A DNA stretch of 64,000 nt from Chitinispirillaceae bacterium (GCA_016929595.1 JAFGIN010000017.1:1-64000), one strand, 5' to 3'; shown: positions 8,529 to 58,400, counted from the first letter of the stretch. Translations and numbers: made by a program. Notes: generated from the letters alone by a model not told the origin.

Positions 8529-8532
8529 CTGC

Positions 8533-39515: not shown

Positions 39516-40382
39516 TTATTGTTCAAAATTTCGCCAGAGCAACATTTTGTTCGTTCCACCAGTTTCCTGTAAGCTTCCGGCTAACAGTTCCTCATCCAGA
39601 AGCATCGTGATTTCCTCGAGCATCTTACTGTACGATTCGATTTTCCTGTATTCTTCGTTAAAAGCTGTTTGTACTGCCTGGCTGAATGTCATTCCGCCGG
39701 TCCAGTTTTGTAGAAAATAGATTGGTGAAAACATGACTAACGAGTTTGCATCAGACGCACCATTTACCGCAGTTATGCCCGCGCGTTCCCATGCCTCAAT
39801 CATCGAAGAACCATAACAGCAGGTCTGGTACAGCGTGCGGGGGCAGGCCGAGCGGTTTTTAATGCTGTTGGTGAATGCATCGAGGTTGTATGAGCTGTCG
39901 GCGAAAAGTATCGATGTTTCCCCACTGAAAAAATTCAAACTTCCGTGAAGGTTGAGGATCATATCTACTGTATAGCCACTCGTACACATCGTGGTAAGGG
40001 AATCGAGTACTGCCCTTCCGGTTGCGGCTTCATCGGTGAGAACGACAATTTTCGTATAGAAAGGCTGAGCCGCTTCGGTCAATGCACGAATCTGCCAATC
40101 CTCTCCGAATTGATCGATGACTTCATCAAGGGAGAGGCTGTCGGGAATATCATCCGGTTTGATTTCAAAAACATCGGCGAAAATGGTTTTCATCTCCTTT
40201 TGGTAATATGTATATCCGGTCGACATCGAGGAGTCAAGAAGGTTATTGTTTTCGACAACGATAAGAAGTGCTTCCTGGCCGGTCCTGATATAGGGCGGAG
40301 ATAGCGGGTTTTCTGTGCTGCAAAAGAAAAATAGAGCAATGATCTGTACCACTGCCAGTAGCAACAAAGTTTTTCGTCTCAT
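39516..40382 (-). CDS. Lipoprotein with caspase-like (clan CD) peptidase signature
   Basis: A 288-residue protein from the ATG at 40382 (GGAG six bases upstream, followed by a signal peptide MRRKTLLLLAVVQIIALFFFC). The lipidated Cys is probably residue 21. The core contains VDMILNLHGSLNFF with His146-Gly147 and, 40 residues on, TLYQTCCYGSSMIEAW with Cys188/Cys189. This His-Gly then Cys order at strand ends is the clan CD (gingipain/clostripain/caspase-like) dyad. Other blocks (GITAVNGASDAN, FLQNWTGGMTFSQAV) agree with that fold. Substrate unknown. Confidence 0.55.
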   Translation of the reverse strand: MRRKTLLLLAVVQIIALFFFCSTENPLSPPYIRTGQEALLIVVENNNLLDSSMSTGYTYYQKEMKTIFADVFEIKPDDIPDSLSLDEVIDQFGEDWQIRALTEAAQPFYTKIVVLTDEAATGRAVLDSLTTMCTSGYTVDMILNLHGSLNFFSGETSILFADSSYNLDAFTNSIKNRSACPRTLYQTCCYGSSMIEAWERAGITAVNGASDANSLVMFSPIYFLQNWTGGMTFSQAVQTAFNEEYRKIESYSKMLEEITMLLDEELLAGSLQETGGTNKMLLWRNFEQ

Positions 40383-40729
40383 ACCGGGCTCCATTATAGT
40401 TATTGTATAGGAGGAAATGACAATAAAATAAATCATGGCGATAAAAAGGCAAGCTAGAGTCTTTACCGGCAGTAGTTTGCCCAATACTTTTGCTTTGAGC
40501 GCAGAAGTGCCCAGCATAAAACCATCTTACAAAGTTTACAATCATATCTGCACAAATATTGACTTATATGGCGATGGATGTAATAATCTCATTTTATGAA
40601 GAACCAATAAAAAATTCTATTTGCGATTCTATAATGGAAATACTTGTAATAATTTCATCCTGTAATTAATTTAAATATTAAGAGTTGTGAAAAAATGAAT
40701 TTATTGAATTGAGATGAATACGTTTGAAT
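40383..40729. other. AT-rich divergent intergenic region
   Basis: About 350 bases between the divergent lipoprotein gene and the five-gene operon. It should hold both promoters. Several T/A-rich stretches are present. No RNA gene, repeat or coding remnant was recognised. Confidence 0.4.
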
Positions 40730-40822: not shown

Positions 40823-42697
40823 ATGTCACAAGCAGCAGTGACTGGATGTATCACGGACATGGCCGGAAGAGGCATTGGAGATCTGAATGTTGTATTATTT
40901 GATGAAGAACTCTTTGGAAAAGATGTCCGGATGGGAGCTTGTATCACAAATGCAAGTGGTAATTTTAAAATCAGTTATTCCAAATGGGGTATTGGTCATG
41001 CTAATGAATGGTATCCAGATTTCAGGTTAAGAGTATTTAATGCTTTTGGTAGAATGCTATTCGAAACAAAAACTCATTCGGGAGTCAATACTGACAACTA
41101 CAGTTTCGGAATTATAAAAGTTGAGGATATTGTCAGATCCGGATATAAGGTAACCAATAATAAAATAGTTGAAATTAACAGTACTTCCAATACGATTTCC
41201 AATCCGATGGTATCATCCGGAAACAGGGTTACGCCACTCATCGATAATGAAGAAGGCTGGTCCCAGCTTGCACAGGCTATTGAAAACGCAACAACATCAA
41301 TTAATTCAATGCAGCTCTACTTCGATGTGGGTGAACTTTACGTCCGTTTTACCAATAGCCCTCTTAACGTCAGTGATACTGACCGCCTGGAAAAACTGCT
41401 TGAGGCAAGGGCAAATTCGAATGTTAAAGTCCGTATATTGATGAATGATTTTATTCTGATGCCCTATCCTATCGATACTGCAGGAGTAACATGGTTTCGT
41501 TTCACCGGGACAAAAGTGGAAACCGAAAATTTTGAAGTATGGGTTAATACACCGATGCATGCAAAAGCTACAGTTATCGATGGACAGACAACCATTTTCA
41601 ATGCATCACCTCTTCTGCAAGAGTATTATGATGACACAAATCACCATCTCAGAAATCAGAAACGGGGTAAAATGTCCTGGAAACCATTTAACTGGTTCCC
41701 GACAAAAAATGCAATCCGTGTTCCGATTCATGATGTGAACGTCAAAATTGAAGGTGCGGCATCCGTTGATGTCGAGACAACTTTCAAATTACTTTGGGAA
41801 CATGAAGGACAAGAGTTTACTGATTCTGCTCAGCCAACAAACATTGGAAATGAACATGTTCAAATAGTTCGTACACTTCCCGGTAATACTTTCAACAATA
41901 TGTATTATGGAGAAACGGGAATTCTGCAGGCGTATCAACGCGCATTTGAGAACGCACAATCTCTGATCTATATCGAAAATCAATATTTAACAAATAAAAG
42001 AATTGCACAATCATTGTTTAGTGCACTGAAACGGAATGCGACACTTGAACTTATCGTTTTGATGAATAATGCGGTGGATATACCGGGTTATTTTGAAAGT
42101 CAGAACAAGCTGGTTGGCGATTTTATTAAAAATGCACGTAGTGAAGGATTCGGGAACAGAATCGGATTTTTTACAAGATGGACGTACGAACCGGATGGAC
42201 AGACTTTTGCCGTGGTCAGAAATTATGTTCATGCCAAAGTCGGGATAGTTGATGATGTATGGGCAACGATAGGCAGTGCTAATCTTGATGGAACATCACT
42301 GGATTTGAGTGAACATCTGTTATGGGTATCCAGGGATGATCAATATGAGGAGCGTGCGGTAGAGATGAATGCTGTTTTTATAAATGGTATCGAAGGTTTT
42401 AACCGTTCAACGGTTCCATTAAACTTAAGAAACAGTTTATTTACCGAGCACCTTGGCATGACTTCAAATCAGCCTCCAGCAGGCGGCTGGCTGCGACAAT
42501 GGAAGAATAAAGCGGACGAAACACTACAGAATATAAAAACCAGAAATCCAGGGTCACCGAGGATACTGGAATGGAACAACATGGAGGATCCTGTTGAGTA
42601 TCTGAAAAAAGCAGGGGTGACAAGTACCGAGCTGAAGCAGATACGTGTGTATAAAGAAGTGCCATCATTTGACTTTTCAAAAAAGGAATGGGTTTAA
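40823..42697 (+). CDS. Phospholipase D-type protein with N-terminal Ig/transthyretin-like domain
   Basis: A 624-residue protein from the ATG at 40823, preceded by GAGGGGGGG. Residues 1-95 look like a transthyretin-related beta domain (VTGCITDMAGRGIGDLNVVLFDEE...GNFKISY). Two HKD motifs follow: HAKATVID (His246, Lys248, Asp253) and HAKVGIVD (His470, Lys472, Asp477, then GSANLDGTS). So it is a complete PLD-superfamily enzyme with both half sites, likely a phospholipase or phosphodiesterase. There is no signal peptide, so export, if any, would need a dedicated system. It is the first gene of a tightly coupled five-gene operon of otherwise unknown proteins. Confidence 0.85.
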   Translation: MSQAAVTGCITDMAGRGIGDLNVVLFDEELFGKDVRMGACITNASGNFKISYSKWGIGHANEWYPDFRLRVFNAFGRMLFETKTHSGVNTDNYSFGIIKVEDIVRSGYKVTNNKIVEINSTSNTISNPMVSSGNRVTPLIDNEEGWSQLAQAIENATTSINSMQLYFDVGELYVRFTNSPLNVSDTDRLEKLLEARANSNVKVRILMNDFILMPYPIDTAGVTWFRFTGTKVETENFEVWVNTPMHAKATVIDGQTTIFNASPLLQEYYDDTNHHLRNQKRGKMSWKPFNWFPTKNAIRVPIHDVNVKIEGAASVDVETTFKLLWEHEGQEFTDSAQPTNIGNEHVQIVRTLPGNTFNNMYYGETGILQAYQRAFENAQSLIYIENQYLTNKRIAQSLFSALKRNATLELIVLMNNAVDIPGYFESQNKLVGDFIKNARSEGFGNRIGFFTRWTYEPDGQTFAVVRNYVHAKVGIVDDVWATIGSANLDGTSLDLSEHLLWVSRDDQYEERAVEMNAVFINGIEGFNRSTVPLNLRNSLFTEHLGMTSNQPPAGGWLRQWKNKADETLQNIKTRNPGSPRILEWNNMEDPVEYLKKAGVTSTELKQIRVYKEVPSFDFSKKEWV

Positions 42698-45600
42698 TGC
42701 AAAGGACAGGCAGCACATTGTACGATATTATTCTCTTTACCGGAGATGGGCTCGATAAGCTGGGGTTATGTCTCTGTGAAGCCTCCCAGCTTTCGGAGCT
42801 GTACGCCAGATTGGGTTGGAAGCTCGATCTGGATGAATCGACTGTTAAAAATATTGTAAAGTTAGGTGAAAGCCCGTTTGCTGAGGTCAGTGAGGACCTT
42901 ATCGCTTTAATAGAAACGCTCAGAGCTGATGATATTGACTGGAAGCAGACAGGCAAAGATGCAATCGCTTTAGGAAAGGCGATCGTACCGGTATACGAGA
43001 GTATCAAAGGTTTTATTGACGCATTAAACTCAGCATCAGATCTTGCAGATAACCCTAATTGGGACAGAGATATATTCTTTAGAGAATTGCTTGATCTTCT
43101 TACCATGCAGCTTATCAGGTCACTTAATCAGCGGGTGTATTATTCACTGATGCTGCTAGGTGTCTTTGATATTGAATCTATCGATTTTTCATCTGAGCCC
43201 CAAGAACTTAGAAACGTAAGAATCAATTATGAGCGATGTACGGTATCCTATGAACGCATAGGTCTGCTATTCAGTGATCCACGACAACTTTTTACAGACG
43301 CTTATGGATGGGGGACAACACAATTTCGAGGTGAAAAACTACTTAATAATTTCGGACAGTTCCTGAAATCTTTTGGTTGCAAAGCATCATCAGGAATGCT
43401 TTCTGAGGCTTTTGAGACAAGAGTACTCGGAACAGCTTACGATGTAAACAATACGATGCCGCAGTTGATTATTGATCTGTGCGATTCATTTTTAGAGACC
43501 GGAATATCAGCTGGTCTTTCTCTCTTTGAATTACGGAGTGATAATGCAGTAAACAACAATAGCGGTATAGGATTTTCGCCTATTATTGATGGTAAATTCA
43601 GCAACGAGCTCGCAGTCGCTGAAAACTGGCTTTTTAATGTAGCAGCAAACTTCAATATGGAAGGAATGCTGGTTGTAACAAAACGCCCTGCACAACGATG
43701 GAATATAGCCGGTAATGCTATTCCGTCGGGAAGTCTTGTTTTTACTCTTAAACATCGAAATGATGATGATCGTGATATTCCACTTATCTCTTTAACCGAA
43801 AAAAACGGCTTGTTCTGCAAGGAAATTGCATTCTCCGCAGGAGTGGAATTTAACGGAACCGACTTTTTACCCCTGTTTGAAGCTGCGATAAAAGGCGGGG
43901 TGGTCCGCCTGAAGATAAACTCTGATAGTGACGGATTGATCGGATCGCTTCTTGCATCCGTTCCTGAGATTGAGATGCTTTTTGATCTGACAATAGGATA
44001 CAGCGAATCAAAGGGGATCTATTTTGATGGTGGTGTCGGTCTTTCCAAAACATTTACAATTCGAAAACAGCTCGGACCGTTTTTTCTTGATTCATTTACT
44101 TCAGCAGTTAAAGCCGAAGCCACAAACGTTTCTCTGACTGCAGCGGCAACAGGTGGACTTGAACTTGGACCTGTAAAGATGGTAATTCATAACGTTGGTA
44201 TTGCCATCAAGGTAGATTGGAGTGCGGATGCGGAAAAATCATTCCTTGGCGCGGCAAATATTGATATTGCATTTAAGAGGCCCGATGGTTTCGGTATTTC
44301 AATCGATGTCGGCGTGTTCAAGGCTTCAGGGTTCCTCTTAATTGAAGAGAACCGTTATATTGGTATGATTGAGATAACGGTTGCAGATTCATTCAGTTTG
44401 ATGGCACTTGGTATTCTGACGGAAGATAAGGGCACCTACTCGTTTCTGATACTGATTAATTGTCATTTTCCCAGTCCCATTGCGCTCGGAATGAATTTTT
44501 ATCTATCTGCAGTAGGTGGAATGGTTGGATATAACCGGGGGATGGATCCGGAAGCGATGAGAGCAGGTGTGCGCGCAGGAACGATCGAAAATGTTATGTT
44601 TCCGAAAGACCCGCTGAAGAATCTTCCAAAAATTATTGAAACGCTGGAATCCTATTATCCGTTCAGTAAAGATCAGTTTATCTTCGGGCCATTCTGTCAG
44701 ATAACCTGGAGTGTCCCGACGCTAATCAAGCTCAATATCGGCCTTCTGATTGAACTCCCCGATCCGGTGAGAATCGCAATTATCGGTACTCTCCATGCAA
44801 AACTACCCAAAGAAGATGCTGCAATTATCAGTCTAAACGCGGCTTTTCTGGGTTTGATTGATTTCAATGCAAAAATGCTTTCATTCGATGCCTCGATTTA
44901 TGATTCATATCTGGGATATGGCAAGCTGAAATTTTCTATCGAGGGTGATATCATATTCAGATTATCATGGGGGAAAAGAAAGGCATTTGTATATTCCATG
45001 GGTGGATTCCATCCTGCCTATAAAGTCCCGACAGATCTGGCAATACCCTCTAAAATAAAACGAATGACGATTACTATCTGGAAAGATAACCCAAAACTGG
45101 TGTTGACACATTATTTTGCCATAACTTCCAATACCGTTCAGTTTGGAGGAGCCCTTGATTTTCTCTATAAGAAATGGGGTTTCTCTGTTGAAGGCGGTTT
45201 ATGGCTTGATACGCTGTTCCAGTTCAGTCCATTCATGTTCATTGTCGATATCGGTGCAAAACTCGCGGTAAAACGCGGAAGTACCAACATCTGTTCTGTC
45301 GGTTTGGGCATGACACTCTCCGGACCGAATCCATGGCATGCGAAAGGATATGCGAAATTCAGTATCTGGATCGTCTCGTTTAAAGTTACATTTGACAAGA
45401 CATTCGGTGACAAACATGAGATACCATTGGAAGAGTCTACTGTACTCCCGCAATTTTTCGATGCTCTTGAAGATAGAGCCAACTGGAAAGGAACATCACT
45501 TGAGAAGTCAACCGGGGGTATACTGATATCCATTTATTCCAGTGACGCAGAGATCCCAGTTGTTGACAGCTGTGGCTATGTTGAGGTAAATCAGGAGGTG

Positions 45601-46155
45601 ATACCACTTGACTATGGTATCAACCGGTTTGGTACCACGATCCCCAGGGATGTTCAGAAAGTCAGAGTTACCGATGTCTGGATCGGAGAGAGAAAGACCG
45701 TAGCGTCTCCAACTCTTGTATCCGAAAATTTTGATGATTCAATGACTTATTTAATGACCGATTTTGCCAAAAGTCAGTTTACAGCGATGGCAGAAGATGA
45801 GAAATTGACGGCACCATCATATGAGCCGTTCAAAAGCGGTGTGAAAATACGAGATAATGACCAGCGTGATGAATACAGGGGAGTAGAGACTTCCTACACA
45901 CTTAATTACGAGCAGATTATCTGCGATGATCCAGATGTTTCAGGTGTTGCTGAAGGGCGGGGGTTGAGACAGTTTTCGCAGAATCTCTCAAAATTGACTG
46001 CAGCAGGATCGGTCAGCCGAAGCTCAGCTTCCCTGAAAAGAAAAAAACTCAGAACCACAAAGGCGACATCACGATCTTCAATGTTACCAGATAACGGAAA
46101 ACGGGTTTCCTGGGAAAAGAACATGATGGAAGCAGTTGCCAGAGGAGTTAAATAA
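42697..46155 (+). CDS. DUF6603-type large protein
   Basis: A 1152-residue protein. The ATG at 42697 overlaps the PLD stop by one base (TAATG) and has AAGGA nine bases upstream; an ATG at 42688 sits directly on the AAGGA and is less likely. The N-terminal about 230 residues are helical. From about 330 on, long amphipathic beta-rich segments follow with Gly-rich turns (VGVFKASGFLLIEENRYIG; GKRKAFVYSMGGFHPAYKVP), a pattern I associate with the uncharacterised DUF6603 family (from memory). No signal peptide or catalytic motif. The C-terminal 60 residues are basic and Ser-rich. Confidence 0.6.
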   Translation: MQRTGSTLYDIILFTGDGLDKLGLCLCEASQLSELYARLGWKLDLDESTVKNIVKLGESPFAEVSEDLIALIETLRADDIDWKQTGKDAIALGKAIVPVYESIKGFIDALNSASDLADNPNWDRDIFFRELLDLLTMQLIRSLNQRVYYSLMLLGVFDIESIDFSSEPQELRNVRINYERCTVSYERIGLLFSDPRQLFTDAYGWGTTQFRGEKLLNNFGQFLKSFGCKASSGMLSEAFETRVLGTAYDVNNTMPQLIIDLCDSFLETGISAGLSLFELRSDNAVNNNSGIGFSPIIDGKFSNELAVAENWLFNVAANFNMEGMLVVTKRPAQRWNIAGNAIPSGSLVFTLKHRNDDDRDIPLISLTEKNGLFCKEIAFSAGVEFNGTDFLPLFEAAIKGGVVRLKINSDSDGLIGSLLASVPEIEMLFDLTIGYSESKGIYFDGGVGLSKTFTIRKQLGPFFLDSFTSAVKAEATNVSLTAAATGGLELGPVKMVIHNVGIAIKVDWSADAEKSFLGAANIDIAFKRPDGFGISIDVGVFKASGFLLIEENRYIGMIEITVADSFSLMALGILTEDKGTYSFLILINCHFPSPIALGMNFYLSAVGGMVGYNRGMDPEAMRAGVRAGTIENVMFPKDPLKNLPKIIETLESYYPFSKDQFIFGPFCQITWSVPTLIKLNIGLLIELPDPVRIAIIGTLHAKLPKEDAAIISLNAAFLGLIDFNAKMLSFDASIYDSYLGYGKLKFSIEGDIIFRLSWGKRKAFVYSMGGFHPAYKVPTDLAIPSKIKRMTITIWKDNPKLVLTHYFAITSNTVQFGGALDFLYKKWGFSVEGGLWLDTLFQFSPFMFIVDIGAKLAVKRGSTNICSVGLGMTLSGPNPWHAKGYAKFSIWIVSFKVTFDKTFGDKHEIPLEESTVLPQFFDALEDRANWKGTSLEKSTGGILISIYSSDAEIPVVDSCGYVEVNQEVIPLDYGINRFGTTIPRDVQKVRVTDVWIGERKTVASPTLVSENFDDSMTYLMTDFAKSQFTAMAEDEKLTAPSYEPFKSGVKIRDNDQRDEYRGVETSYTLNYEQIICDDPDVSGVAEGRGLRQFSQNLSKLTAAGSVSRSSASLKRKKLRTTKATSRSSMLPDNGKRVSWEKNMMEAVARGVK

Positions 46156-49100
46156 TGGGTGTCCAACTTAATGACCTTGCGGAATATAAATTCTATCCCT
46201 TCGTAAGAAGGGGATTGACTCTCAGTTATGAAACTGAAGATAATTTTGGAACTGGACCTGTCCAAGGTACTGCTCTCAATCCGATTGTACCAGCTGGGTT
46301 GGAGCTTGGAGTACTTGCACCCGGTGATGATGCTGTTGAACAACCGGTTCAAATAGAGAAAAATATTGGCATTGCAGCCCCTGTAGATGTTATCGGTATA
46401 GAAGCTGGTGCAATCATACGGACAATTCCCCGGGCTGGAATAACAAACTTTTGCGCAGACTTTCTGGCGGGAATTGAATTTTTTGATGAAGATTTTCCAT
46501 GGAGGTTTACTCCTGTCAAACATGATGAGCAGACACTGCGGTTGCGACCGTGGATTACACTGTTAGTTCTTAGTGATAATGAATACACGTTAAAAACGGG
46601 AAAAGATGGTAAAGTTCTATCGATCATTGATAGTGAAACCTATCTAAAGGTGATGCCGGATATCAAAGAATCATGGGCGTTTGCACACACACAGTTCGCA
46701 CCAGATGCAAACGGTAATTATGACACCGATTCCGATCTCAGTCTGTCGCGATTGTTATCTTCACGCAAAATGAAACCGGATACAGCTTATACGGCATTTA
46801 TAATACCCTCATTCGAAGCTGGAAGAAGAAGACTTCTTAACCTTCCTATGGACGGTGTTGACATTACGACTCCTGCATGGAGTAAAACCACGTCAGAACC
46901 CAATCTCTTTATGCCGCTATCTTTTCCAGTGTATTATCAGTGGAGTTTCTCCACCTCCCATTATGGCGATTTTGAAACCTTATGTGAAATAATAAAGCCG
47001 GATGTTGCGACAGATACACTGGGTAAGCGAGAAATGGATATTGGTAATGCAGCAGCACAGCTTGAGCTGGACCGGGAGTTTGATACAGTTGGTTTTGAAG
47101 GCTCGCTAAAACCAGTCAATTTCGAACGTGCGCCGAGAGTCGGTGGTGCCTTTGAAAACAGCCTTGTTGCATTGCTTTCAAAATCAGCTGATTTTGCAAA
47201 AAAAGGCTACCTGACATCGGTTGACGAGGACATAATGATTGTGCCTCCGGTATATGGTGCAACGTACCAACCTGAAGGTATGGCGATGACTGGGTGGTGT
47301 TCAACGCTCAATAAGGACCCGCGTAATCGTGCAGCAGCTTCTATTGGTGCAAAAATTGTTCGAAAAAACCAGGATCGATTCGTTGAGGAAGCCTGGGATC
47401 AGGTTGACGAGATAAATAAAAAAAATGAAGCTCTGAGAAACGCTGCATTTGTTGGAAAAATTTCCAATCTGTTGATGTGCAGGCATATTCATTCTCAGGA
47501 TGAAAATCGTAGGATTTCATTATCAAAAGTGTATCACTCCAGAATTCCGGCAGGAATGAACAGCACACTTAGCGAAGAGCTTCATGAATCAAACTGTCCT
47601 GATGCGGTAGTATCTCTGGCATTCAGAAAGAGTACAAGACCGACAAAAAGAATGTTGCTTTGTACCGAAAAAGAAGGTTCCAACTATTTTGAAAAAGCGC
47701 GTAAGGGAGCATTGTCAACTGCACCGGCAACTGCGAAGGATCCTGTATCAATGGATATTGGAGCCGTAACAAAACAGTTCGACAAGTGGGCTGTTAATCA
47801 CCGGGTGGTGACACTTGCAGTTACCGCTCTTTTTGATAAACTAAAAGAAGTTCCCAGCACCAGTTGGGATAATTTTATAAATGTCAGAAAGTTTCTGTCC
47901 AGTGATACGAATCAACCTGCAAACACTTCGAAAACAACCTATATGGAGATGGTTTCAAATATTACCTGGTCCTGGAAAACTGAACTAAACGGTAAAATGC
48001 ATTATGGAATCAGAATTAAAAGTGCCACTTATAAAAAATTTCTGGGAAGGATCTACGACAGATTTGAATATGAGAATTTCGGTATTCAGTTATGCAAAAA
48101 CACAGACATTCCGCAAAATGTGCGTGTTATTGAACGACGTCTCACTGAGGCAGATATCAATGCAATGGAAACCCGGATGAAGACAATTAATGCAGTGTAT
48201 AAAAGACAGAGCGATGATCCTGCTACTGATTTCAATAAGGATAATCGTAACGATTTCACGGCAGACCAGGATAACATAACCGCTATGTTGAATCCCAGAA
48301 GAGCCATGATGTATCTGCTGGAAGCTCAGTTCGGAGGGCCTGTTACAGCTGAAATGGCATACCCTGAGCTGGATATTGCTTTCTATAGAGAGCTTATCAA
48401 AGAGTCAAAAGATCTTATTATACCAAATTTTAATACCATAAAACAAAACTCTCTTTTGCTGCTCGAGACCAATACGCAGTTTGTTGAATCGGTCCTTGCA
48501 GGTGCCAATACCGAGATGGGTAAAGAACTCTTATGGAGAGAGTATCCTACCGATCGTAGAGGAAGTTATTTCAGAAAATTCTGGGACAAGCATGATGCAC
48601 TCGATGTAAACGAAACATATGATATAAAAAAAATAACCGGATGGAATTCAGCTCTTGGAGAGAATTCCGCAGACTTTCAGGCAGCTGCATTTGTTGTTCT
48701 GGTAGTAAGAGCAGACTTGTTCAAAGCCTTTCCTGATACGATAGTTTTTGCACTTGAAGCAGAAAAATCGCAAGCACTTAGAACTCCTGACTGGGATAAA
48801 AAACCTGTTTTTCCGAAATTCACTGCTGAAATTGAAGACGTTAAATTGTTTGCATTTAATCTAAAAGCTGACCAGGCAAAAGGCGGTGGCACAGCCGGGG
48901 AAGGATACTTCTTTTTGTTTCAGCAAAGACCGGGGCAGATGGAGTTCGGTCTTGATGCTCCGCAGCGCGATAATCAAGACGCAATTGTAGTGAATACTTC
49001 GGAAACAGAACTCAACGAACTTACATGGGCACATTTGGTCAATAATATAGATGAGCTACCTTCTCTGGAACACCTCAGGCTGTTTCAGCCAGACGGTGCC

Positions 49101-49226
49101 GTTACACTCCACGCAGCAAATTCGCTCAGAACAATGTGGCAGAATGGTAATGGCGGATCATTTGCAACAATGCTCATACAGCAACCAATAATCTATGCCC
49201 GACATGCAACAGATATACTTCCGTAA
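46155..49226 (+). CDS. Large uncharacterised protein (1023 residues)
   Basis: Unknown function. Its ATG overlaps the upstream stop by one base. No signal peptide, membrane segment or enzymatic motif. Notable blocks: FYPFVRRGLTLSYE near the start, LRPWITLLVLSDNEY (about 130-145), FPVYYQWSFSTS (about 257-268), IVPPVYGATYQP (about 365-376) and GEGYFFLFQQRPGQMEFGLD (about 919-938). The 'RPW-x-x-L-L-V-L' block is a recurring feature, as I recall, of uncharacterised proteins encoded beside DUF6603-like genes in other phyla; I could not check this. Confidence 0.85.
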   Translation: MGVQLNDLAEYKFYPFVRRGLTLSYETEDNFGTGPVQGTALNPIVPAGLELGVLAPGDDAVEQPVQIEKNIGIAAPVDVIGIEAGAIIRTIPRAGITNFCADFLAGIEFFDEDFPWRFTPVKHDEQTLRLRPWITLLVLSDNEYTLKTGKDGKVLSIIDSETYLKVMPDIKESWAFAHTQFAPDANGNYDTDSDLSLSRLLSSRKMKPDTAYTAFIIPSFEAGRRRLLNLPMDGVDITTPAWSKTTSEPNLFMPLSFPVYYQWSFSTSHYGDFETLCEIIKPDVATDTLGKREMDIGNAAAQLELDREFDTVGFEGSLKPVNFERAPRVGGAFENSLVALLSKSADFAKKGYLTSVDEDIMIVPPVYGATYQPEGMAMTGWCSTLNKDPRNRAAASIGAKIVRKNQDRFVEEAWDQVDEINKKNEALRNAAFVGKISNLLMCRHIHSQDENRRISLSKVYHSRIPAGMNSTLSEELHESNCPDAVVSLAFRKSTRPTKRMLLCTEKEGSNYFEKARKGALSTAPATAKDPVSMDIGAVTKQFDKWAVNHRVVTLAVTALFDKLKEVPSTSWDNFINVRKFLSSDTNQPANTSKTTYMEMVSNITWSWKTELNGKMHYGIRIKSATYKKFLGRIYDRFEYENFGIQLCKNTDIPQNVRVIERRLTEADINAMETRMKTINAVYKRQSDDPATDFNKDNRNDFTADQDNITAMLNPRRAMMYLLEAQFGGPVTAEMAYPELDIAFYRELIKESKDLIIPNFNTIKQNSLLLLETNTQFVESVLAGANTEMGKELLWREYPTDRRGSYFRKFWDKHDALDVNETYDIKKITGWNSALGENSADFQAAAFVVLVVRADLFKAFPDTIVFALEAEKSQALRTPDWDKKPVFPKFTAEIEDVKLFAFNLKADQAKGGGTAGEGYFFLFQQRPGQMEFGLDAPQRDNQDAIVVNTSETELNELTWAHLVNNIDELPSLEHLRLFQPDGAVTLHAANSLRTMWQNGNGGSFATMLIQQPIIYARHATDILP

Positions 49227-49241
49227 CAATGGGGAACAGCA

Positions 49242-52200
49242 ATGAGTAACGAAATACAGTCAATTTATGTCGATCCTCAAATAGCCAGGATCTATGAAGA
49301 TTTCAGGAAAATAGGCAGTGACACACCGATTCTACTCCAACCAGTCCGGTTGGAAACACGTTTTAAATGTGTCGATGTTCCCATGAGCATGAAACAGGGC
49401 GACTGGTGTATGGAACTGCTGTTTTCAATATCTTTGCAACTTGAAAGGGCATGTCTGCTCAATGATAACGCATATATTAACCATATCATGGCTATTATCG
49501 CCAAGCTTAAAGAGGTTATTTCTCTTCTTGAACAACAGCCTGATGTTGAGCTCCGCGTAAAGAGATCTATCACAATCTGGTATGGTATTATAAACAGGAA
49601 GGTTACAGCAATTGACACAAGAACAAAAAAAATAGTCGATAGGCTTTCTAGGGCACCGATTCTTGCACCATATGTTTCCAGACTCAATGAACTACGCCAG
49701 CAGCTTGATACTCAGCCTTCGGCTGTGCAAAAAGCCACGAAACTTATCGAGGACATTAAAAAACGGGCAATAGATTTTTCTAATACGCGACTTACTTATG
49801 TTAACAAAGTCGATAAAAAACAGAACCATATCATTATACAACAATATGTTCAGAAGCTTGAAGAAGACCTTAAAAGATTTTCCCAGCTCAGTGCGCAATT
49901 GGCAACCGTATCTAAAGCTGAAATCACCGCGTTAAATAATGCCTGGGGAACCGTCGGGTCACAATCTGGAGTGGTTTTGCTCGTATCAAAGAGTATTAAA
50001 AGTATTGATACACTGAAACGTTCCAATATCAGAACGAAAAACAGTTACTCCTGTGATATATACAAAGGGAAACTTGAGCGTGCGTTTGATCAGTTAAAAC
50101 AGATTATGGCGGATTTTAATCTGAAACGCAACCATGTTGAAAATACGTTAAAGATATCGCAGAACATTCTGGCCCGTGACCGCATTCAGGTGTATCTGAG
50201 GCTGGCATTGCACAGTTTTTATACACTCAATATCACATTGCAGTCAAAAGAACGGTTGCTCAACAAATCGCTTCTGGATCAGCATCTAAAAACAGCTCAG
50301 AGCGGAGTGCTGACACTAATTCGCTATATGAACTATGTGCAGCTGGTGTCAATAAATGATGTACGGACGATGAGAAAAGAAGTTGAATTGTTTTCCGAAT
50401 TGTCAAAGGTCATTTTCTCTAATACTAATATGACTGCTTTTAAATCCAGCATATCTGACAAGGTTACCAGGATAATATCGGGGCTCAGGAATGCACTTGA
50501 AAAAGTCTCCGGTTCACCTGTGTATTTGCGTATGACAGCTTCTGATTCGAAAAAATTTCAGTTCGTCTATCTCCCGGAAAATTTCAAAGAGCTGTGGGTA
50601 AGAATATATCCTGACTCCTGCAATGTGTCAACTCATCCGAGTCGTCTTACGCAGATAGAACTTGACAGAGGAATGGAGTTTCTGGAGTCATGGTACGATC
50701 TCTATGGTGCCGAAACAGAGCAGCAGGAATTATGGACACAGTTTGCCAAAAGTTTCAGCATAAACCGGGCTGCTTTTATTGTTCGTGAAGTTAACAGCCT
50801 TATTACAAATACCAATGATTTTAAAACATCCTGGCATAAATTGGTTGATGCTTGTATTATTGTTTTACATGAGGATGACAGGGATGAACAGGATAAGGCA
50901 TTCCAATCTATCGGAGAACATCTCAAATCCATTCTCAGTTTCTCCCCGATACAGGTAAGACGACTGGATAACTTGCTGGCAGCAATCTCTATACATGCCA
51001 AAGGCAATAAAACGAGAAGTAGCGTAATCTCTGGATATAAACAGACGGTTAAGCAAAAACCCATTGATTCAAGACGTTCAACGCAACAGAATCTCGAATT
51101 CAGACCGTATGGTTCGATCAGGAAAGATGATACGGAAACGGATGCGATTGCGATAAATCTGCCGGAACAGTTTGTAATGGTAACACAGCGTGGAGATCAG
51201 TATTGTCATATTCATGTTGGTAATCCGGTTGATAAAAAAATGTATGTAGGTTTTACCGATGGTGTACTGGATCCGCTTACTGGCAAATCAGAAGCTGAAG
51301 GGGTAGTTGAACCAGACGGAAAAGGAAATCTTGTTGTTAATGAAAAACTGCTCTGGATTGTTGATTTTGAAGCTGCGGTAAGAAAAGGTATGGCGGCAGC
51401 TTTGCCTCTTACAGAGCAGGATTATCAAATAGGGTTTGACAGGATTATTGTAACCGGTGTTACCTGCCATGCAAATACATCAAAAGAACTGAATGCACTT
51501 TTTGACACATTTCAGTTCTCTCCTGACGGCTGCTCAATTATTCCAGTTGGAACTCCTACCAATAATACTGATGAGAGCGCTACACCCTATAAAAACGGTA
51601 TGGAAGATCCACTAGACTGCTATGAAGATCTGTTTCAGGACAACACTCTTCAACCAGATTGCGATCTGATACGTCTGATGAAAGCACTGGGTCTGCAGGA
51701 GTCTTCTGTTTTCAATATACGAAACAATACAAGTGCAGATGCTGTTGCAGTGCAGGCGGTAAATACAGTTCTGTTTTCTGCCACACTTGGTCGGCTCTGT
51801 GAAGATGGAATGCATGCTTTTTTTACTCCGGAAACAATCGAACGGTTACGTGCATTTTTCACATACTACATTTCCGCCAGAGGAGTGTTACCTGCCTTTA
51901 GAGTTGGTTCTCAGCCCTATGGAGTGCTTCCTGTAAGCTCACTGAAGGATTATACCGTTGATGGTGAAGAATTTGATGCGTTGAAATTATCTTCTAATGT
52001 GCCAAATACAGATCAGGAACATGATATCCGTTTCCTTAAACTCGCTACTGAACTGATTAAAATATTCGGAAGAGAATGGAAAGAACTTGCAGAAAATAAT
52101 GTGAAAAACCTTTCACAACTCAGCGTATTCGAAGAACCGCAAAAAACTTTTATGGAGATGCTTGGACTGCATGCGACTTCTCTGACAACTGCTATCAGGC

Positions 52201-55200
52201 TTGTACTCAACAGCGCAAACCGTTCTTCACTTATCGATCATACAATATCGAAAAAAGCTATTCTTTCCGAGCTCATCGATGTATACCGGGCAGGCAGAGG
52301 TTTCTCCGATAAAATAGAGGCATCAAATAAATTCTACAAAGATTTCGGAGAATCCAATCTCTCCCGTCAGCAGCCACTCACAGAAGTGCGCTCAGCAAGA
52401 ATGCTTGATGATATTGCGGCCGAAGATCTGGGTGAACTCAGAGAGCTCAAATCACCTCAGGAACTTGCCGATGCGTTAAAAACTTTAGCATCTGCGGATG
52501 AGAAAAAATCATTTATTCTTTGGCTTTTGTATAACGGTATGCTTCGTACCTATCGAATGGCTGCAACCGACATGCTCTATCATTACGGACTTATCAGTAA
52601 AACGGTATGGCAGCGCAGTTCATCTCCAAACCATATGTATGTTAAAGATAAAGACGGAATAACGGTAAAGCAAAGTAAATGGGAACTGCTTTGGGACAGT
52701 TTTTCAAAAACAGTTAAATTCCACGAAAATCAGTGGTCATATAAAGATGCGACTCCTGATTCAAAAATAGTTTACAAACTTGTTGAAAATATTCCACCGG
52801 CTGATATCCTTTACACTCTGCTCAAAGATCGCCTGAACGAAACTAATGAGTTTGATACGGTATACAAAAGTATTCTTGAAGCTATTTACCGTGAATTAAA
52901 AGGATACTACAGGACAAAATTAAAACCAGATGTTGTTGTTCCCGGGACCATTACCGGCGTAAATACAGCGGATCTGAATGCCTCTCATGTTGCAGTTAAT
53001 CCAGATCTTCTAACACCGCGAACAGCTGAATTTATCAGAGGAACCGACAGGGGCGCTTTAATCGGAGGTTTGTCCGTTCGTGATATTTTTACGTATCCTA
53101 CCCAGAAGAAAATGAACGATATTGTAAAATCAAAGTTAAAAACATTTGTAGATAAACTGGAAGAAATGGTTGTCAACTCTGTATATCTTTCAGATCTGCC
53201 TGATGAACAAGTAAGAGATCTGGTAATGGAGCATCTTGATACGCTTGCCTATCGTCAGGATGCATGGCAGACAGGCCTGTTTATGAAAAGACTTGATGAT
53301 ATCAGAAAGGCTGATACCACAAAAATAGCTGTCGGGTCATATGGATGGTTGCTTAATGTGAAACGAAATCCGAATAAAAGCAAAACTCATTCGCAGGTTC
53401 TTCCCGCTTCACTTCAAGATAAAGAAGAGGGGGTATATCTCAACACTGATAATGAGTCGGAAGCAAAGGGATATCTTCTTACACCGTCAATAAATCATGC
53501 TGTCACGGCAGCAATTCTTAGAAGCGGGTACAAATCAAATGCTGCCTATTATGGAACTGGTGATGATAACAGGTTTGCGGTAAATCTCTCTTCCGAACGG
53601 ATAAGAAAGGCACTAGTGCTTCATCAGGGAATGAAAGAAGGACAGGAACTGGATGCTCTGATCGGATATCAGATAGAACGGTATCTTCATGAGGAATATA
53701 AACGCTCCAAAACAGAGTGTGATGCTCTTATTTATACATTGAGAGAAGTGTTCAGAAAAGAGATACAAGTAAGTGGTGAACATGCATCTTACAGCAACCG
53801 GGTTGTTGACGGTGATGCAGCGCTTGAATATGTCACATCAAAACTGGATAAGTCAGAGGATAAGATCGAACTGGGTACATTGCTCGCCGAAGATTTCATT
53901 TTAAAAAGGCGGTTTACTAAAATTCTCAACATAACAGAAAGTAAGCAGCAGGCACAAGCAGTGGGTAATGCACTGCAGCAGGCACGGGAAACTCTTGATG
54001 CTTATGGGGATCTGATTGTTTCCGAAGCGGTTTTTCAGCATGTCAGGGGAAACCATGTCCGTGCTGCATCTGTAATGGACACCGTAGCAAACGGAAATAT
54101 TCCTGACCGTTTCGAAATTGTTGAGTCGATTCATGAAGGAGAGCATATTCATACAAAAACCATTGCAATATTGCCTGCTCCGACACTGAATACATCATCA
54201 ATTACCGCCTCTGTTTCACCGGCACTAAATAACTTTGCCTCGCAGAAATTCGCTTCACTGGGAACACTGTCAATATCATACAGTCACAATGAAAATAGTG
54301 GCACCCTTACTTTTGATCAACTTGCCATGGCAGCAACCGATATACTACTTGCTGCAAAAGATACATCTGTACAGTTTATTGAATTGATCAGACGTAGAGT
54401 CGCATTTTATCTTAGGAACAGAAATCAGCTTGTTGAAGATGCTGACGTCGTAGTTGCTATTATAAATGAAGATGGCGAATCAGCAGCGGAGGAAATGGTC
54501 TTAATTGCACGTCACATACTGGAAGTGTTTAGAAAAACAAGAAGCTTGAGAGCAGAAGATCTGGAACCCTACTGTACCGTCTCAGATACACTGCTGCAAC
54601 TTCATCATGTGATAAGTGAAACAGCTGAAGCTATTAAAAACAGTGCTGTCGAGGTTCTTGATATATTAAATGATACATTACAGAATAATGACAGAGAAGT
54701 TCTTGATCAGGCGCTTCCGCTTCTATTTACACTCGGTTGTGCATCGGTAATTATCATGCCAATGCCTTCGGTGGAGAAACTCAGCAGAAACACCGTTGTT
54801 GCAGAGATTGAAAAGGTTGTAGCTTCATATGATGCAGTTAAGAAAAAACTTGATTCCATCGGAAGTATACTCAATAGTGATGCGTATGACGATGCTGCTG
54901 TACTGTCTGATCTGCAGAGTGTGGCAGACCACTTTTTTGGAGGTGATCTGAAGCTGATTCCCCAATACACCGTTTCTTTAACAGATGTAGAACTTTATGA
55001 AAAAAGCAATGATCTGCTGCAACACAGTGCAGCACAGACGATAGATATCAGCACTGTACTTGAACAGATTGCACAGGTAAAAGATTCGGTAAATTCCTAT
55101 TCGAAACTGCAGTTTTATACCGAAGATGTATTTTCGGAACCCGTAACTGCCGTCTTACAGACCCCCTACAGTAAAGGCGACTGCTGGGTTGGTCTTGAAA

Positions 55201-55613
55201 TGCCTGAATCATTTGATTATTCAGGGGTCGAAAGAAATATTGTTATTTGTAACAGCGAAAACTGGAGCAGCACCATTGCCGGACTGATGTTGGATGAGTG
55301 GTATGATTTCATTCCGAATAGAACCAAAACGGCCGGCATATCATTTCAGTATGATGCACCAGACTCTGAACCGCCTCAGGCCATGCTTTTGGCGGTATCA
55401 CCGAAACCGACAGGCGCCTGGGAGTTTCGCTATCTGCTCAATACACTTGAAGAAACACTGGAAATGGCAAAAACGCGTGCGGTCGAACCGGATCATGTGA
55501 TACGTAGTCCTTTGCAGACACTGCTGCAGCCAATGCTCTTTGATGCGATTGACAGCGATGTAACCGGTGACAGAAATGTTGAAACTATTGACCTGGTAGG
55601 AGGTGTTCTGTGA
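49242..55613 (+). CDS. Giant uncharacterised protein (2123 residues)
   Basis: Unknown function; the largest gene in the window. The first about 640 residues, after ILLQPVRLETRFKC (about 25-38), are mostly helical and coiled-coil-like (49.3-51.1 kb) and look like an insertion. The remainder is mixed, with recognisable blocks FRVGSQPYGVLPVSSL (about 887-902), NPDLLTPRTAEFIRGTDRG (about 1252-1270) and, near the C-terminus, WYDFIPNRTKTAGISFQYDAP (about 2020-2040). No signal peptide, transmembrane segment, nuclease or protease motif was found. It begins 15 bp after the previous gene and ends in a GTGA overlap with the next. Size and context suggest a structural or scaffold role. Confidence 0.85.
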   Translation: MSNEIQSIYVDPQIARIYEDFRKIGSDTPILLQPVRLETRFKCVDVPMSMKQGDWCMELLFSISLQLERACLLNDNAYINHIMAIIAKLKEVISLLEQQPDVELRVKRSITIWYGIINRKVTAIDTRTKKIVDRLSRAPILAPYVSRLNELRQQLDTQPSAVQKATKLIEDIKKRAIDFSNTRLTYVNKVDKKQNHIIIQQYVQKLEEDLKRFSQLSAQLATVSKAEITALNNAWGTVGSQSGVVLLVSKSIKSIDTLKRSNIRTKNSYSCDIYKGKLERAFDQLKQIMADFNLKRNHVENTLKISQNILARDRIQVYLRLALHSFYTLNITLQSKERLLNKSLLDQHLKTAQSGVLTLIRYMNYVQLVSINDVRTMRKEVELFSELSKVIFSNTNMTAFKSSISDKVTRIISGLRNALEKVSGSPVYLRMTASDSKKFQFVYLPENFKELWVRIYPDSCNVSTHPSRLTQIELDRGMEFLESWYDLYGAETEQQELWTQFAKSFSINRAAFIVREVNSLITNTNDFKTSWHKLVDACIIVLHEDDRDEQDKAFQSIGEHLKSILSFSPIQVRRLDNLLAAISIHAKGNKTRSSVISGYKQTVKQKPIDSRRSTQQNLEFRPYGSIRKDDTETDAIAINLPEQFVMVTQRGDQYCHIHVGNPVDKKMYVGFTDGVLDPLTGKSEAEGVVEPDGKGNLVVNEKLLWIVDFEAAVRKGMAAALPLTEQDYQIGFDRIIVTGVTCHANTSKELNALFDTFQFSPDGCSIIPVGTPTNNTDESATPYKNGMEDPLDCYEDLFQDNTLQPDCDLIRLMKALGLQESSVFNIRNNTSADAVAVQAVNTVLFSATLGRLCEDGMHAFFTPETIERLRAFFTYYISARGVLPAFRVGSQPYGVLPVSSLKDYTVDGEEFDALKLSSNVPNTDQEHDIRFLKLATELIKIFGREWKELAENNVKNLSQLSVFEEPQKTFMEMLGLHATSLTTAIRLVLNSANRSSLIDHTISKKAILSELIDVYRAGRGFSDKIEASNKFYKDFGESNLSRQQPLTEVRSARMLDDIAAEDLGELRELKSPQELADALKTLASADEKKSFILWLLYNGMLRTYRMAATDMLYHYGLISKTVWQRSSSPNHMYVKDKDGITVKQSKWELLWDSFSKTVKFHENQWSYKDATPDSKIVYKLVENIPPADILYTLLKDRLNETNEFDTVYKSILEAIYRELKGYYRTKLKPDVVVPGTITGVNTADLNASHVAVNPDLLTPRTAEFIRGTDRGALIGGLSVRDIFTYPTQKKMNDIVKSKLKTFVDKLEEMVVNSVYLSDLPDEQVRDLVMEHLDTLAYRQDAWQTGLFMKRLDDIRKADTTKIAVGSYGWLLNVKRNPNKSKTHSQVLPASLQDKEEGVYLNTDNESEAKGYLLTPSINHAVTAAILRSGYKSNAAYYGTGDDNRFAVNLSSERIRKALVLHQGMKEGQELDALIGYQIERYLHEEYKRSKTECDALIYTLREVFRKEIQVSGEHASYSNRVVDGDAALEYVTSKLDKSEDKIELGTLLAEDFILKRRFTKILNITESKQQAQAVGNALQQARETLDAYGDLIVSEAVFQHVRGNHVRAASVMDTVANGNIPDRFEIVESIHEGEHIHTKTIAILPAPTLNTSSITASVSPALNNFASQKFASLGTLSISYSHNENSGTLTFDQLAMAATDILLAAKDTSVQFIELIRRRVAFYLRNRNQLVEDADVVVAIINEDGESAAEEMVLIARHILEVFRKTRSLRAEDLEPYCTVSDTLLQLHHVISETAEAIKNSAVEVLDILNDTLQNNDREVLDQALPLLFTLGCASVIIMPMPSVEKLSRNTVVAEIEKVVASYDAVKKKLDSIGSILNSDAYDDAAVLSDLQSVADHFFGGDLKLIPQYTVSLTDVELYEKSNDLLQHSAAQTIDISTVLEQIAQVKDSVNSYSKLQFYTEDVFSEPVTAVLQTPYSKGDCWVGLEMPESFDYSGVERNIVICNSENWSSTIAGLMLDEWYDFIPNRTKTAGISFQYDAPDSEPPQAMLLAVSPKPTGAWEFRYLLNTLEETLEMAKTRAVEPDHVIRSPLQTLLQPMLFDAIDSDVTGDRNVETIDLVGGVL

Positions 55614-57397
55614 GTAATTATACCTGTCAACCGATAAATTATATACAGCGTTTAACCTGTCGCCCACGCGTGAAAGAGTTCGGGCGGGTACTTAAAAATG
55701 AAGTGTATGATCCGTTATGGATGTTGTCGCGGCAGTGGCAGTTTGGTGAATTCAAAGCTGATGATGCCGGTTCTCCTGTACTGGTAAAAACAGAAATATG
55801 TTCCAGTCCCATTACAGATACGAACAGCATTGATGGTCTTAGCGGCCTTGAGTACAGTGCTGAGACTGAGCCGCTTAATACTCGTATTGAAGCTCTGGAG
55901 ATTCGGTTTGATCTCAGGTCTCGCATTGCTCTTGCCAGACAATTTATGAAATTATATGCAATTGAATCATCTGAAGGCAAAACGCAGCTCTTTGAACAGC
56001 TGAAGGTATTATTTCCTTTTGCAGTCAGGCTGGACGATGGTTCGTACCGTTACGAAATAAAAAATCCCAATAGTAAACATGAAAAAGAATCATTCAGTGC
56101 TGCTGTTGCATTATCACTTAAAATAGTAACCAGAAAATCATTTGATGGAAAAAAGTTTTATGATGCTGCAAAACAAGACCCTGACCTGGAGTTTATGACA
56201 CCTAACGCAGCAACCGATACGTACCGGCGGGAAATTAAGCGGGCAACTGAGAAGTTTGTTATGTGGGTGGAGCAAACATATACTCTTCCCAAAAGTGATA
56301 CCTGGAATAACAGTAGAATGGAATACAGTACAAAACAGCTGATTGAAGACGAAAGTAGTATTATTGTACTGAATTCCGAAGAGTATGATGGCAATCATCT
56401 TGACTGGCACAATTTTGATATTACAGGACGTCAGCAGAAAAATACCGCAAAAAATCCTACAACTATTATTACGACTATTCCCGATAGAGTTGCCTATACT
56501 GGTATGCCGGCAAAGCGCTGGTGGGAAATGGAGGATGGATCGGTTAATTTCTGCAATCTTAAAACAGATCTGACTAATACCGCAAAGGTGTTGTTAACCG
56601 AATTTGCACTGATGTTCTCCAATGACTGGTTTAACATACCTTTTGATATTGCATCAGGTGCTGTAACCGAAGTTAAGGGAATGGTTGTTACAGATGTCTT
56701 CGGGGACAAAACCATGATCAGATCCGCACTGGACAAAAAAGTTCCATGGTATGGCTGGACAATGTTTTCATTGCGCGATCAAACTGTAGAGGATGATTAT
56801 TGTGATCAACGGATGTTAGTGCTTCCCGTTACCCATCGTTATCAGGAGAGTGCACCCATAGAAGAGGTATATATGGGTCGTGATGAGATGACCAATATGG
56901 TTTGGGGAGTTGAAAAAACTTTTTTCCATCCAGTGTACGGTAAAGTGAGTGTTGAAGATTCATTGAATCTTGATGGTCATCTTAATTCTGATATACTATC
57001 TGATGCTCCACTTACTTATGATCTGTTCAATGGGGTTGCTAAAAACTGGATACCGTTTGCTCCTGTGCGCCTGGATGGAGACAGTAATTTCAGGGAGATA
57101 ATTCTGCAGCGTGCTGCAATGCCGCAATTGGATGGTTCCGGGTATACACATATCCGTCCCAATACGCAACTACTTCGAGCAGGCATTGATGACACTAATA
57201 ATCAACAGAAAAAACTATCTATTTACGAAGAAGAAGTTCCCCGAAGCGGCATAAAGATCACTTCGTGTTTACGTATGACACGATGGTATAACGGGAAGCG
57301 AATTTTATGGTGCAGCAACAAAAAGAAGGTTGGAAGAGGTGAATCGGCCAGCAGTCTTGAATTTGATAAAATAACTGAAAATAAACTTGCTACGTAA
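55610..57397 (+). CDS. Uncharacterised protein of the five-gene operon (595 residues)
   Basis: Unknown function. GTG start at 55610 with an ideal AGGAGG (55598-55603) and a 4-bp overlap with the giant gene. The N-terminal block VYDPLWMLSRQWQFGEFKADDAGSPV (about 32-57) is highly characteristic and, as I recall, conserved in uncharacterised proteins from several phyla. Other blocks: PAKRWWEMEDGSVNF (about 300-314), LTEFALMFSNDWFNIPFDI, and RDEMTNMVWGVEKTFF (about 424-439). No signal peptide or catalytic motif. Last gene of the coupled operon. Confidence 0.85.
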   Translation: MSNYTCQPINYIQRLTCRPRVKEFGRVLKNEVYDPLWMLSRQWQFGEFKADDAGSPVLVKTEICSSPITDTNSIDGLSGLEYSAETEPLNTRIEALEIRFDLRSRIALARQFMKLYAIESSEGKTQLFEQLKVLFPFAVRLDDGSYRYEIKNPNSKHEKESFSAAVALSLKIVTRKSFDGKKFYDAAKQDPDLEFMTPNAATDTYRREIKRATEKFVMWVEQTYTLPKSDTWNNSRMEYSTKQLIEDESSIIVLNSEEYDGNHLDWHNFDITGRQQKNTAKNPTTIITTIPDRVAYTGMPAKRWWEMEDGSVNFCNLKTDLTNTAKVLLTEFALMFSNDWFNIPFDIASGAVTEVKGMVVTDVFGDKTMIRSALDKKVPWYGWTMFSLRDQTVEDDYCDQRMLVLPVTHRYQESAPIEEVYMGRDEMTNMVWGVEKTFFHPVYGKVSVEDSLNLDGHLNSDILSDAPLTYDLFNGVAKNWIPFAPVRLDGDSNFREIILQRAAMPQLDGSGYTHIRPNTQLLRAGIDDTNNQQKKLSIYEEEVPRSGIKITSCLRMTRWYNGKRILWCSNKKKVGRGESASSLEFDKITENKLAT

Positions 57398-57452: not shown

Positions 57453-58400
57453 ATGACATTTGTTTTTGAAGCAAAAGGTGAAATAGCCAGCAGTCATGGG
57501 CCTCTCAAAGGAATAGGGCATGAGCCCTATTCCGGCGAGAGTGGTTTTACAGTCGCAACATTCAATCAAATACTCCAAAAACCTTTAAATTCGTTAACAC
57601 TTATAGATTGCAGACCCGTTAAAGCTTTTCGTAAATTGCATATTCCAGATTCTGTACATCGTTCTGAAATTCATCCGTGTAAGAATGATCTCTATAACGA
57701 ACCCGTTTTCATTGGTGATACTCTGAAACAACAGATGTTTTATGCAAAAGAATTGCGTTACACAAATTCGACATTCTGCAGTAACTGTTTCAGTGAAATC
57801 ACAGATAATCTTCTGTCATTTTATGACAAATTTTATACATTAAAAATTCTTGCAGGAAAAACTGGTTGTGGAAAGAGTGAAATTCTAAAAAAATTACAAC
57901 AACAGTCACAACAGATAATAGATATCGAGAAGATTGCAAACCATGCAGGATCTGTTTTCGGTAAATTGATTACTAACGATAAGCAACCATCGGTATTGCA
58001 GTTCAGGCTGAATGTAGCCTGGAAACTTGCCGGGTTTGATCGTAACAAACCAATATGGATGGAGCAGAAAGCCCGGGCTGTCGGATCAGTTTCACTAACT
58101 GATGGATTTCTTAAACAGATTGAATCTGCTCCTCATTATGTAATCGAAGCTGACGTCGAAAAACGGCTCGAACGTATTATTAAAATCTATGGCCATACAG
58201 ATTTTGATGTTCTGCTGACACTTTCAGAAAAGATTGTCCCAAGGCTGCGGGAAACAGAGAAAGCTATATATGAAAAAGCTGTAAGAAACAGGTCTGTTAA
58301 AGAACTCTTTATTGTTTTACTTTCCTATTACGATTCGGTATATGATTTCTATTTGAACAAGGTAAATTCCAGCAAATTTAATTTTTTCCGGACCCCATGA
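57453..58400 (+). CDS. MnmH/SelU-like protein with degenerate rhodanese domain
   Basis: A 315-residue relative of tRNA 2-selenouridine synthase. The P-loop half is good: LAGKTGCGKSEIL (133-145), IIDIEKIANHAGSVFG (155-170) and PIWMEQKARAVGSVSL (200-215) match the family's GKTGxGKT, DLEGLANHRGSxFG and ExESRxIG blocks. The rhodanese half starts normally (LTLIDCRPVKAFRKLHIPDSVH, 48-69), but the Cys-containing C-x-R-G-G-x-R-S active-site loop is absent, and the protein is about 50 residues shorter than usual. So sulfur/selenium transfer is unlikely by the known mechanism. It may be a decayed or repurposed enzyme. The gap to the previous operon is 55 bp. Confidence 0.7.
   Translation: MTFVFEAKGEIASSHGPLKGIGHEPYSGESGFTVATFNQILQKPLNSLTLIDCRPVKAFRKLHIPDSVHRSEIHPCKNDLYNEPVFIGDTLKQQMFYAKELRYTNSTFCSNCFSEITDNLLSFYDKFYTLKILAGKTGCGKSEILKKLQQQSQQIIDIEKIANHAGSVFGKLITNDKQPSVLQFRLNVAWKLAGFDRNKPIWMEQKARAVGSVSLTDGFLKQIESAPHYVIEADVEKRLERIIKIYGHTDFDVLLTLSEKIVPRLRETEKAIYEKAVRNRSVKELFIVLLSYYDSVYDFYLNKVNSSKFNFFRTP

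Follow-up and report, generated by a model that had tools for sequence, protein, structure and literature searches.

A four-gene DUF6603 cassette conserved across bacteria and archaea and preceded by a slot for unrelated enzymes

ABC (Tc) toxin complexes are large multi-protein complexes in which a variable enzyme is combined with a membrane-active part. Polymorphic toxins and effectors of the type VI secretion system (T6SS) carry interchangeable enzymatic parts on common partner regions, with joint exchange of effector and adaptor, and T6SS effectors of the BTH_I2691 family have been reported to be pore-forming (PMC12909789). Extracellular contractile injection systems (eCIS) are distributed patchily over environmental bacteria and archaea, and have many associated toxins (PMC8213781). 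The operon described here, which consists of five open reading frames (ORFs) named A to E, all on the plus strand, lies at positions 40823-57397 of a 64,000-nucleotide stretch of DNA from a Chitinispirillaceae bacterium (JAFGIN010000017.1:1-64000; below, the window), whose genome comprises 6.6 Mb in 224 contigs. A TIGR02147-like gene, recognised by eye, suggests that this genome belongs to Fibrobacterota or a related group. A encodes a phospholipase D (PLD) family protein, B is a clear member of DUF6603 (PF20248), a family itself without known function, and C, D and E encode further large proteins.

The operon resembles polymorphic toxin and T6SS effector systems in that variable catalytic domains, encoded in the slot occupied by A, are joined to conserved regions, and in the co-exchange of effector and adaptor. 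However, no VgrG, PAAR, Hcp, MIX, Rhs or immunity gene was recognised in the cassette, and the chassis formed by B-E has no counterpart in those systems. With eCIS it has in common the patchy distribution over bacteria and archaea, but no sheath, tube, baseplate, AAA ATPase or DUF4157 gene was found in it. Searches of A-E with Pfam, NCBIfam and PHROG gave no match to sheath, tube or baseplate families, while sheath matches were present elsewhere in the genomes. Since no such gene is linked to the cassette, this agrees with the first-pass annotation of the window, made from the sequence alone, which had stated that the operon is not a standard contractile system. Any likeness to Tc toxins would at most concern their way of working, as a complex that pairs an exchangeable enzyme with a part acting on membranes; in contrast, the enzyme here is a separate gene, there is no Rhs/YD-repeat cocoon, and Pfam and PDB profile searches showed no sequence similarity, with B-E matching neither the TcA pore nor the TcB/TcC Rhs cocoon.

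Conservation and distribution of the B-E cassette

A re-check of the ORFs showed that all five genes are present and tightly coupled, as the first-pass annotation had described, with a 1-bp overlap between A and B (if B starts at 42697), a 1-bp overlap between B and C, a 15-bp gap between C and D, and a 4-bp overlap between D and E. B matched DUF6603 with 379.7 bits against a curated cut-off of 27, over positions 2-495 of the 502-position profile. Besides DUF6603, no Pfam, NCBIfam, PHROG, PADLOC or PDB sequence family matched B-E; C, D and E had no Pfam family above cut-off, and no NCBIfam, PHROG or PADLOC match of weight. PDB profile searches with two family alignments (E and C) gave no match, and those with two others (one of them D) gave only coiled-coil or chance matches. 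Hence, the large proteins matched no characterised family, as had been anticipated, and the three motif blocks of C, D and E that had been taken as marks of conserved families indeed contain columns that are invariant, or nearly so, when 24-27 distant homologues are aligned. That C, D and E are duplicates of one another was rejected, the best hhalign pair (D-E) having a probability of only 23%.

A scan of bacterial and archaeal genomes with E gave 29 loci, in Bacteroidota, Acidobacteria, Nitrospira, Verrucomicrobia, an Anaerolineae, an alphaproteobacterium, and a Williamsia metagenome-assembled genome. Further loci were found on plasmids, in Streptomyces, Gemmatirosa, Rhizobium, Paraburkholderia, Nocardia and several haloarchaea. 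The genes B, C, D and E were grouped in nearly all loci with sufficient flanking sequence, with median gaps of 9 bp (B-C), 6 bp (C-D) and 5 bp (D-E); the gap was within 60 bp in 39-46 of the 43-47 adjacent pairs per junction, which are not all independent, as some loci overlap or share a genome. The usual gene order was A-B-C-D-E, and in the few permuted loci (D-E-X-B-C, D-E-C-X-B, C-D-E-X-X-B) the enzyme gene X still preceded B. DUF6603 was present in 32/35 of the genomes or records found with E. The recurrence of the B-C-D-E order in dozens of loci is far beyond chance, and the four-gene cassette B-E is conserved across bacteria and archaea. The co-occurrence suggested earlier for all five families was thus found for only four of them, the PLD being present in one other sampled slot (Nitrospira). 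The contiguity of B-E across phyla and archaea supports the earlier proposal that the products act together, while the large assembly which they were proposed to form is still conjectural.

The cassette is an accessory, patchy trait in the window's phylum, where E was detected in 6/168 genomes and DUF6603 in 8/168, all 6 among the 8. In one Bacteroidota family, 21 clear DUF6603 matches were found among 246 genomes. An orphan E, without B, C and D, was seen in a Streptomyces anthocyanicus plasmid (L031:17938-19740), with IS5 transposases a few kb upstream. The cassette was virtually absent from phage and viral collections, and a phage or prophage origin was rejected, as no relative of E was found in IMG/VR and only one among 50,697 phage-collection records. 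This sole match (MT835531.1, 30109-31227) comes from a 40-kb faecal 'Bacteriophage sp.' record that carries no annotation and may be a misfiled bacterial contig. The searched open-access literature held no mention of DUF6603 and no description of the cassette or its role, and a description elsewhere is still possible.

A second type of DUF6603 cluster (L075, L076, L079, L080, L082, L083, L091-L094) consists of DUF6603, a shorter relative of C, and an unrelated giant of ~1140-1540 aa. Comparison of the N-terminal module of C with this relative by hhalign gave 95.5% over 79 columns, within profile columns 72-152. The neighbours of the second type include a class 3 lipase, an endonuclease/phosphatase-family protein and collar-domain proteins. 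DUF6603 and the N-terminal module of C may represent the oldest core.

Interchangeable enzymes and their exchange with the B N-terminus

The gene preceding B is tightly coupled to it, yet is unrelated from locus to locus. A PLD fills this slot in the window and in the Nitrospira locus L053, which among the loci sampled contains the only homologue of the window's A (E 5.8e-69). The slot encodes a PhoD-like protein in L018, L032, L047-L049, L056, L073, L077, L078 and L090, a Nal1/trypsin-like protein in L037, L038, L045, L086, L087 and L089, a subtilase (S8) in L055, an M64 peptidase in L054, M23 in L017, M15 in L021, and a Kelch/galactose-oxidase-like protein in L081. The slot protein of L036 partially matched the T6SS effector family BTH_I2691 (E 2.7e-10, under the curated cut-off), that of L019 gave a weak pre-toxin (PT-TG) match, and several further ones have no assigned family. 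Hence, the slot accommodates hydrolases and toxin-like proteins that are unrelated to one another, and the PLD effector of the first-pass annotation is supported in a generalised form. On the tree of B, the 16 slot types require 18 changes. The S8 and Nal1-type slot proteins have a common C-terminal region of ~120 aa, and the M23-type protein of L017 has an N-terminal region of ~400 aa in common with the L040 and L039 proteins, whose C-termini differ. In these slot proteins, a shared region is combined with varying catalytic parts. Stand-alone genes of 136-138 aa, homologous to part of the Nal1-type slot proteins, were also observed (L087:13249-13662 and L089:5025-5432), beside further Nal1-like paralogues.

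The extent of the exchange was best seen in close relatives. The Nitrospira loci L053/L023 and L056/L030 are syntenic, with conserved upstream genes, and are 84% identical in C, 77% in D, 82% in E, and 76% in B from residue 362. However, A is a PLD in one and PhoD in the other, without similarity, and residues ~1-360 of B are almost without similarity. The swapped interval comprises only A and the 5' part of B, with ~200 bp from A to the conserved upstream gene. Similarly, L017 and L021 are 67-76% identical in C, D, E and the B C-terminus, while A (M23 versus M15) and the B N-terminus differ. Conversely, the window and the distant Nitrospira PLD locus resemble each other in the B N-terminus (E 8e-30), in the very region where that locus and its congener differ, and the B N-termini of L017 and L040 match (E 4e-51), along with the N-terminal region of A, while their DUF6603 domains are only 27% alike. 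Hence, the N-terminal part of B is exchanged along with A on an otherwise conserved chassis, among close relatives and not as a universal rule.

Predicted structure, features and neighbours of the operon

In the AlphaFold2 (AF2) model of B, the DUF6603 domain is a long antiparallel meander with pLDDT ~82. The hydrophobic face alternates along the strands, as expected of an amphipathic sheet: the hydrophobicity alternation was 2.84 in the window versus 1.41 +/- 0.20 in shuffles, and 3.23 versus 1.26 +/- 0.18 over 27 DUF6603 sequences, a value reached in 0/2000 shuffles. Strong alternation was also present in haloarchaeal DUF6603, while the strands of E were without it. These data show, in sequence and prediction, a conserved amphipathic beta sheet in the DUF6603 half of B. 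Outer-membrane barrels, ushers, LptD, ApoB100 and vitellogenin were among the Foldseek matches of B, and the sheet is consistent with a membrane or lipid-binding one, and no more. A membrane role had been proposed earlier by way of the PLD; it is this sheet, and not the PLD, that suggests such a role. Comparison of B with predicted viral structures gave only low-TM matches to beta-rich tail-fibre and porin-like proteins, which were uninformative. The AF2 model of E had pLDDT 72 and pTM 0.69, and fold recognition with it found no PDB fold match (Foldseek best E 0.19).

The features of the operon are listed in Table 1. A starts with ATG, preceded by a ribosome site of the GAGGGGGG type; an upstream TTG at 40790 is likewise open. 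Its N-terminal part is a beta domain with a weak transthyretin-like match, followed by the two HxK(x4)D motifs in PLD-like domains that define the PLD superfamily. No N-terminal signal-like hydrophobic stretch was found in A-E by a simple hydropathy check, which is not a signal-peptide predictor; the first-pass annotation had likewise reported no signal peptides. Promoter and terminator counts were not clearly higher than in shuffles.

Table 1. Features of the operon (positions in the window)
Feature	Position	Strand	Basis
A: slot enzyme, two-HKD PLD-family protein	40823..42697	+	PLDc_2 E 1.6e-20
HKD motif 1 of A, HAKATVID, residue 246	41558..41581	+	intact
HKD motif 2 of A, HAKVGIVD, residue 470	42230..42253	+	intact
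B: DUF6603 protein, 1155 aa (1152 aa from start 42697)	42688..46155	+	DUF6603 E 2.5e-113
B N-terminal region, residues 1-455: exchanged with A in close relatives; proposed docking region	42688..44052	+	locus comparisons
B DUF6603 domain, residues 456-1040: predicted ~25-strand antiparallel, strongly amphipathic beta meander	44053..45807	+	AF2, amphipathicity, Foldseek
C: 1023-aa LRPW family	46155..49226	+	homologue alignment
LRPWITLLVL block of C; P132, W133, L136 invariant	46542..46571	+	homologue alignment
D: 2123-aa giant; long N-terminal insertion rich in helical sequence	49242..55613	+	alignment; homologues in other loci
QPVRLETRF block of D; P34, E38, F41 invariant	49338..49364	+	homologue alignment
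E: 595-aa DPLW family, GTG start, mixed alpha/beta	55610..57397	+	alignment, AF2 model
DPLWMLSRQWQFGEF block of E	55709..55753	+	homologue alignment

Divergent from the operon, a 333-aa lipoprotein-like protein (39516-40517, minus strand) looks by eye like a caspase-like (clan CD) peptidase (LNLHG ... TCCYGS). Beyond it, a 906-aa protein (36171-38891, minus strand) resembles a T6SS tube-fused effector: its N-terminus weakly matches Hcp/TssD (E 1.6e-12, below cut-off) and is followed, in the same chain, by OmpA-like and peptidoglycan-binding parts. Following E by 55 bp, the gene at 57453-58400 (plus strand) encodes an MnmH-like (tRNA 2-selenouridine synthase) P-loop domain with a truncated rhodanese part; it was not seen adjoining the cassette in the other loci examined. 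Farther away, ABC transporters, HlyD-like and ATP-grasp-like proteins, three radical SAM proteins and glycosyltransferases were recognised by eye at 3461-20543 (plus strand), which may be a peptide natural-product cluster.

Possible function of the cassette

We propose, giving this reading about an even chance of being correct, that the products form a modular effector-carrying complex, in which the chassis B-E bears one interchangeable enzyme A. A would bind the N-terminal region of B, which would act as adaptor, the DUF6603 sheet would bind lipid or insert into a membrane, and C, D and E would form the body or scaffold of a large particle. The complex would act outside the producer cytoplasm and carry A to a membrane or cell wall that is either foreign or extracytoplasmic; such delivery out of the cell is suggested by the kinds of enzymes in the slot (peptidoglycan peptidases, PLD, PhoD, proteases) and by their turnover. 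In the window version, the PLD cargo would act on phospholipid (or nucleic acid). More tentatively, the cassette could encode a machine for effector delivery of a class not described before, present in both bacteria and archaea and without relation to phage tails. It would be composed of a swappable enzyme on the exchangeable adaptor of DUF6603, a giant membrane protein with an amphipathic beta sheet, and of three giant scaffolds of new fold.

Several observations weigh against this proposal. No export signal or linked secretion gene was found, which leaves export unexplained, and no immunity gene adjoining A was recognised; the Nitrospira swap interval contains no other ORF between A and the conserved upstream gene, and therefore no adjacent immunity gene. 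Some loci are without a separate A, B having instead an N-terminal extension of ~1000 aa or nothing adjoining it, and the galactose-oxidase-like and PhoD slot proteins are not typical toxins. In an all-pairs comparison, the link between the type of A and the B N-terminus was loose (L037 and L039, for example, share B N-termini while A differs), and because this systematic co-variation is weak, the co-exchange is based on the close pairs, the window and Nitrospira, and L017/L040. The AF2 model of B as a whole is of modest confidence (pLDDT 57), too low to speak for a closed barrel, and Foldseek TM-scores near 0.14 point to a local beta-meander only.

The absence of signal peptides in A-E and the sporadic distribution (8/168 and 21/246 genomes) would also suit an intracellular, abortive-infection-like defence, in which the giants would sense an invader and release the A enzyme, so that the host cell is killed or arrested. 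Proteases and PLD are frequent effectors in conflict systems, and TIR, STAND, patatin and TPR-S conflict genes lie directly upstream of one Nal1-type cassette (L038:5116-12707). The window PLD weakly resembles DrmC; its identification as DISARM DrmC was rejected, the match (E 5e-5) being far below cut-off. We consider such a defence role unlikely, as no nucleotide- or nucleic-acid-binding domain was recognised in B-E and no PADLOC family match of weight was obtained for them, the M23 and M15 enzymes would have no substrate in the cytoplasm, and the ~25-strand amphipathic sheet is left unexplained. Another possibility is a lipid-handling or surface assembly, such as a lipoprotein-like particle, a storage body or a mineral body, with A as a processing enzyme and not a weapon. 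ApoB100 and vitellogenin among the structural matches of B, the action of PhoD and PLD on phosphodiesters, and the Kelch/galactose-oxidase-like slot protein are in its favour, but peptidoglycan peptidases, trypsin- and subtilisin-like enzymes and the partial T6SS-effector match do not fit a single metabolic role, and the exchange of A points to antagonism, which makes this explanation quite improbable.

The cassette could also be cargo of, or accessory to, a contractile injection system (eCIS or T6SS) whose own genes lie at another place in the genome. In the Bacteroidota family mentioned above, a sheath-family gene was found in 18/21 genomes with DUF6603 versus 91/225 without it (p 1e-4), as raw counts that ignore phylogeny and genome size. 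The window's genome contains a sheath-family gene as well as two VipB genes, the latter on other contigs, a fused Hcp-OmpA protein is encoded just upstream of the operon, and the L036 slot protein partly matches a T6SS effector family. However, in the window's phylum a sheath gene was present in 2/8 DUF6603 genomes versus 45/160 others (p 1), which is no association, and VipB was present in 0/21 other cassette genomes. As a rule, the sheath gene and the cassette are on different contigs or >100 kb apart, the nearest seen being at 36 kb, and the four conserved giants are larger than known cargo. Because the enrichment is limited to one Bacteroidota family, with none in the window's phylum and no linkage, the cassette was not filed as eCIS or T6SS, membership being unsupported by linkage, and we regard this origin as very unlikely.

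Of the large protein machines that occur in both bacteria and archaea, few are still unnamed. If B-E do carry effectors, the cassette would embody a way of delivery that depends neither on phage tails nor on known secretion systems, and A together with the N-terminal part of B would be a natural plug-in site, repeatedly used by evolution. Whatever the function, these data provide a testable role for DUF6603 and three large orphan protein families, and the cassette accounts for 'hypothetical' giant genes in Bacteroidota, Nitrospira, Streptomyces plasmids and haloarchaeal plasmids.
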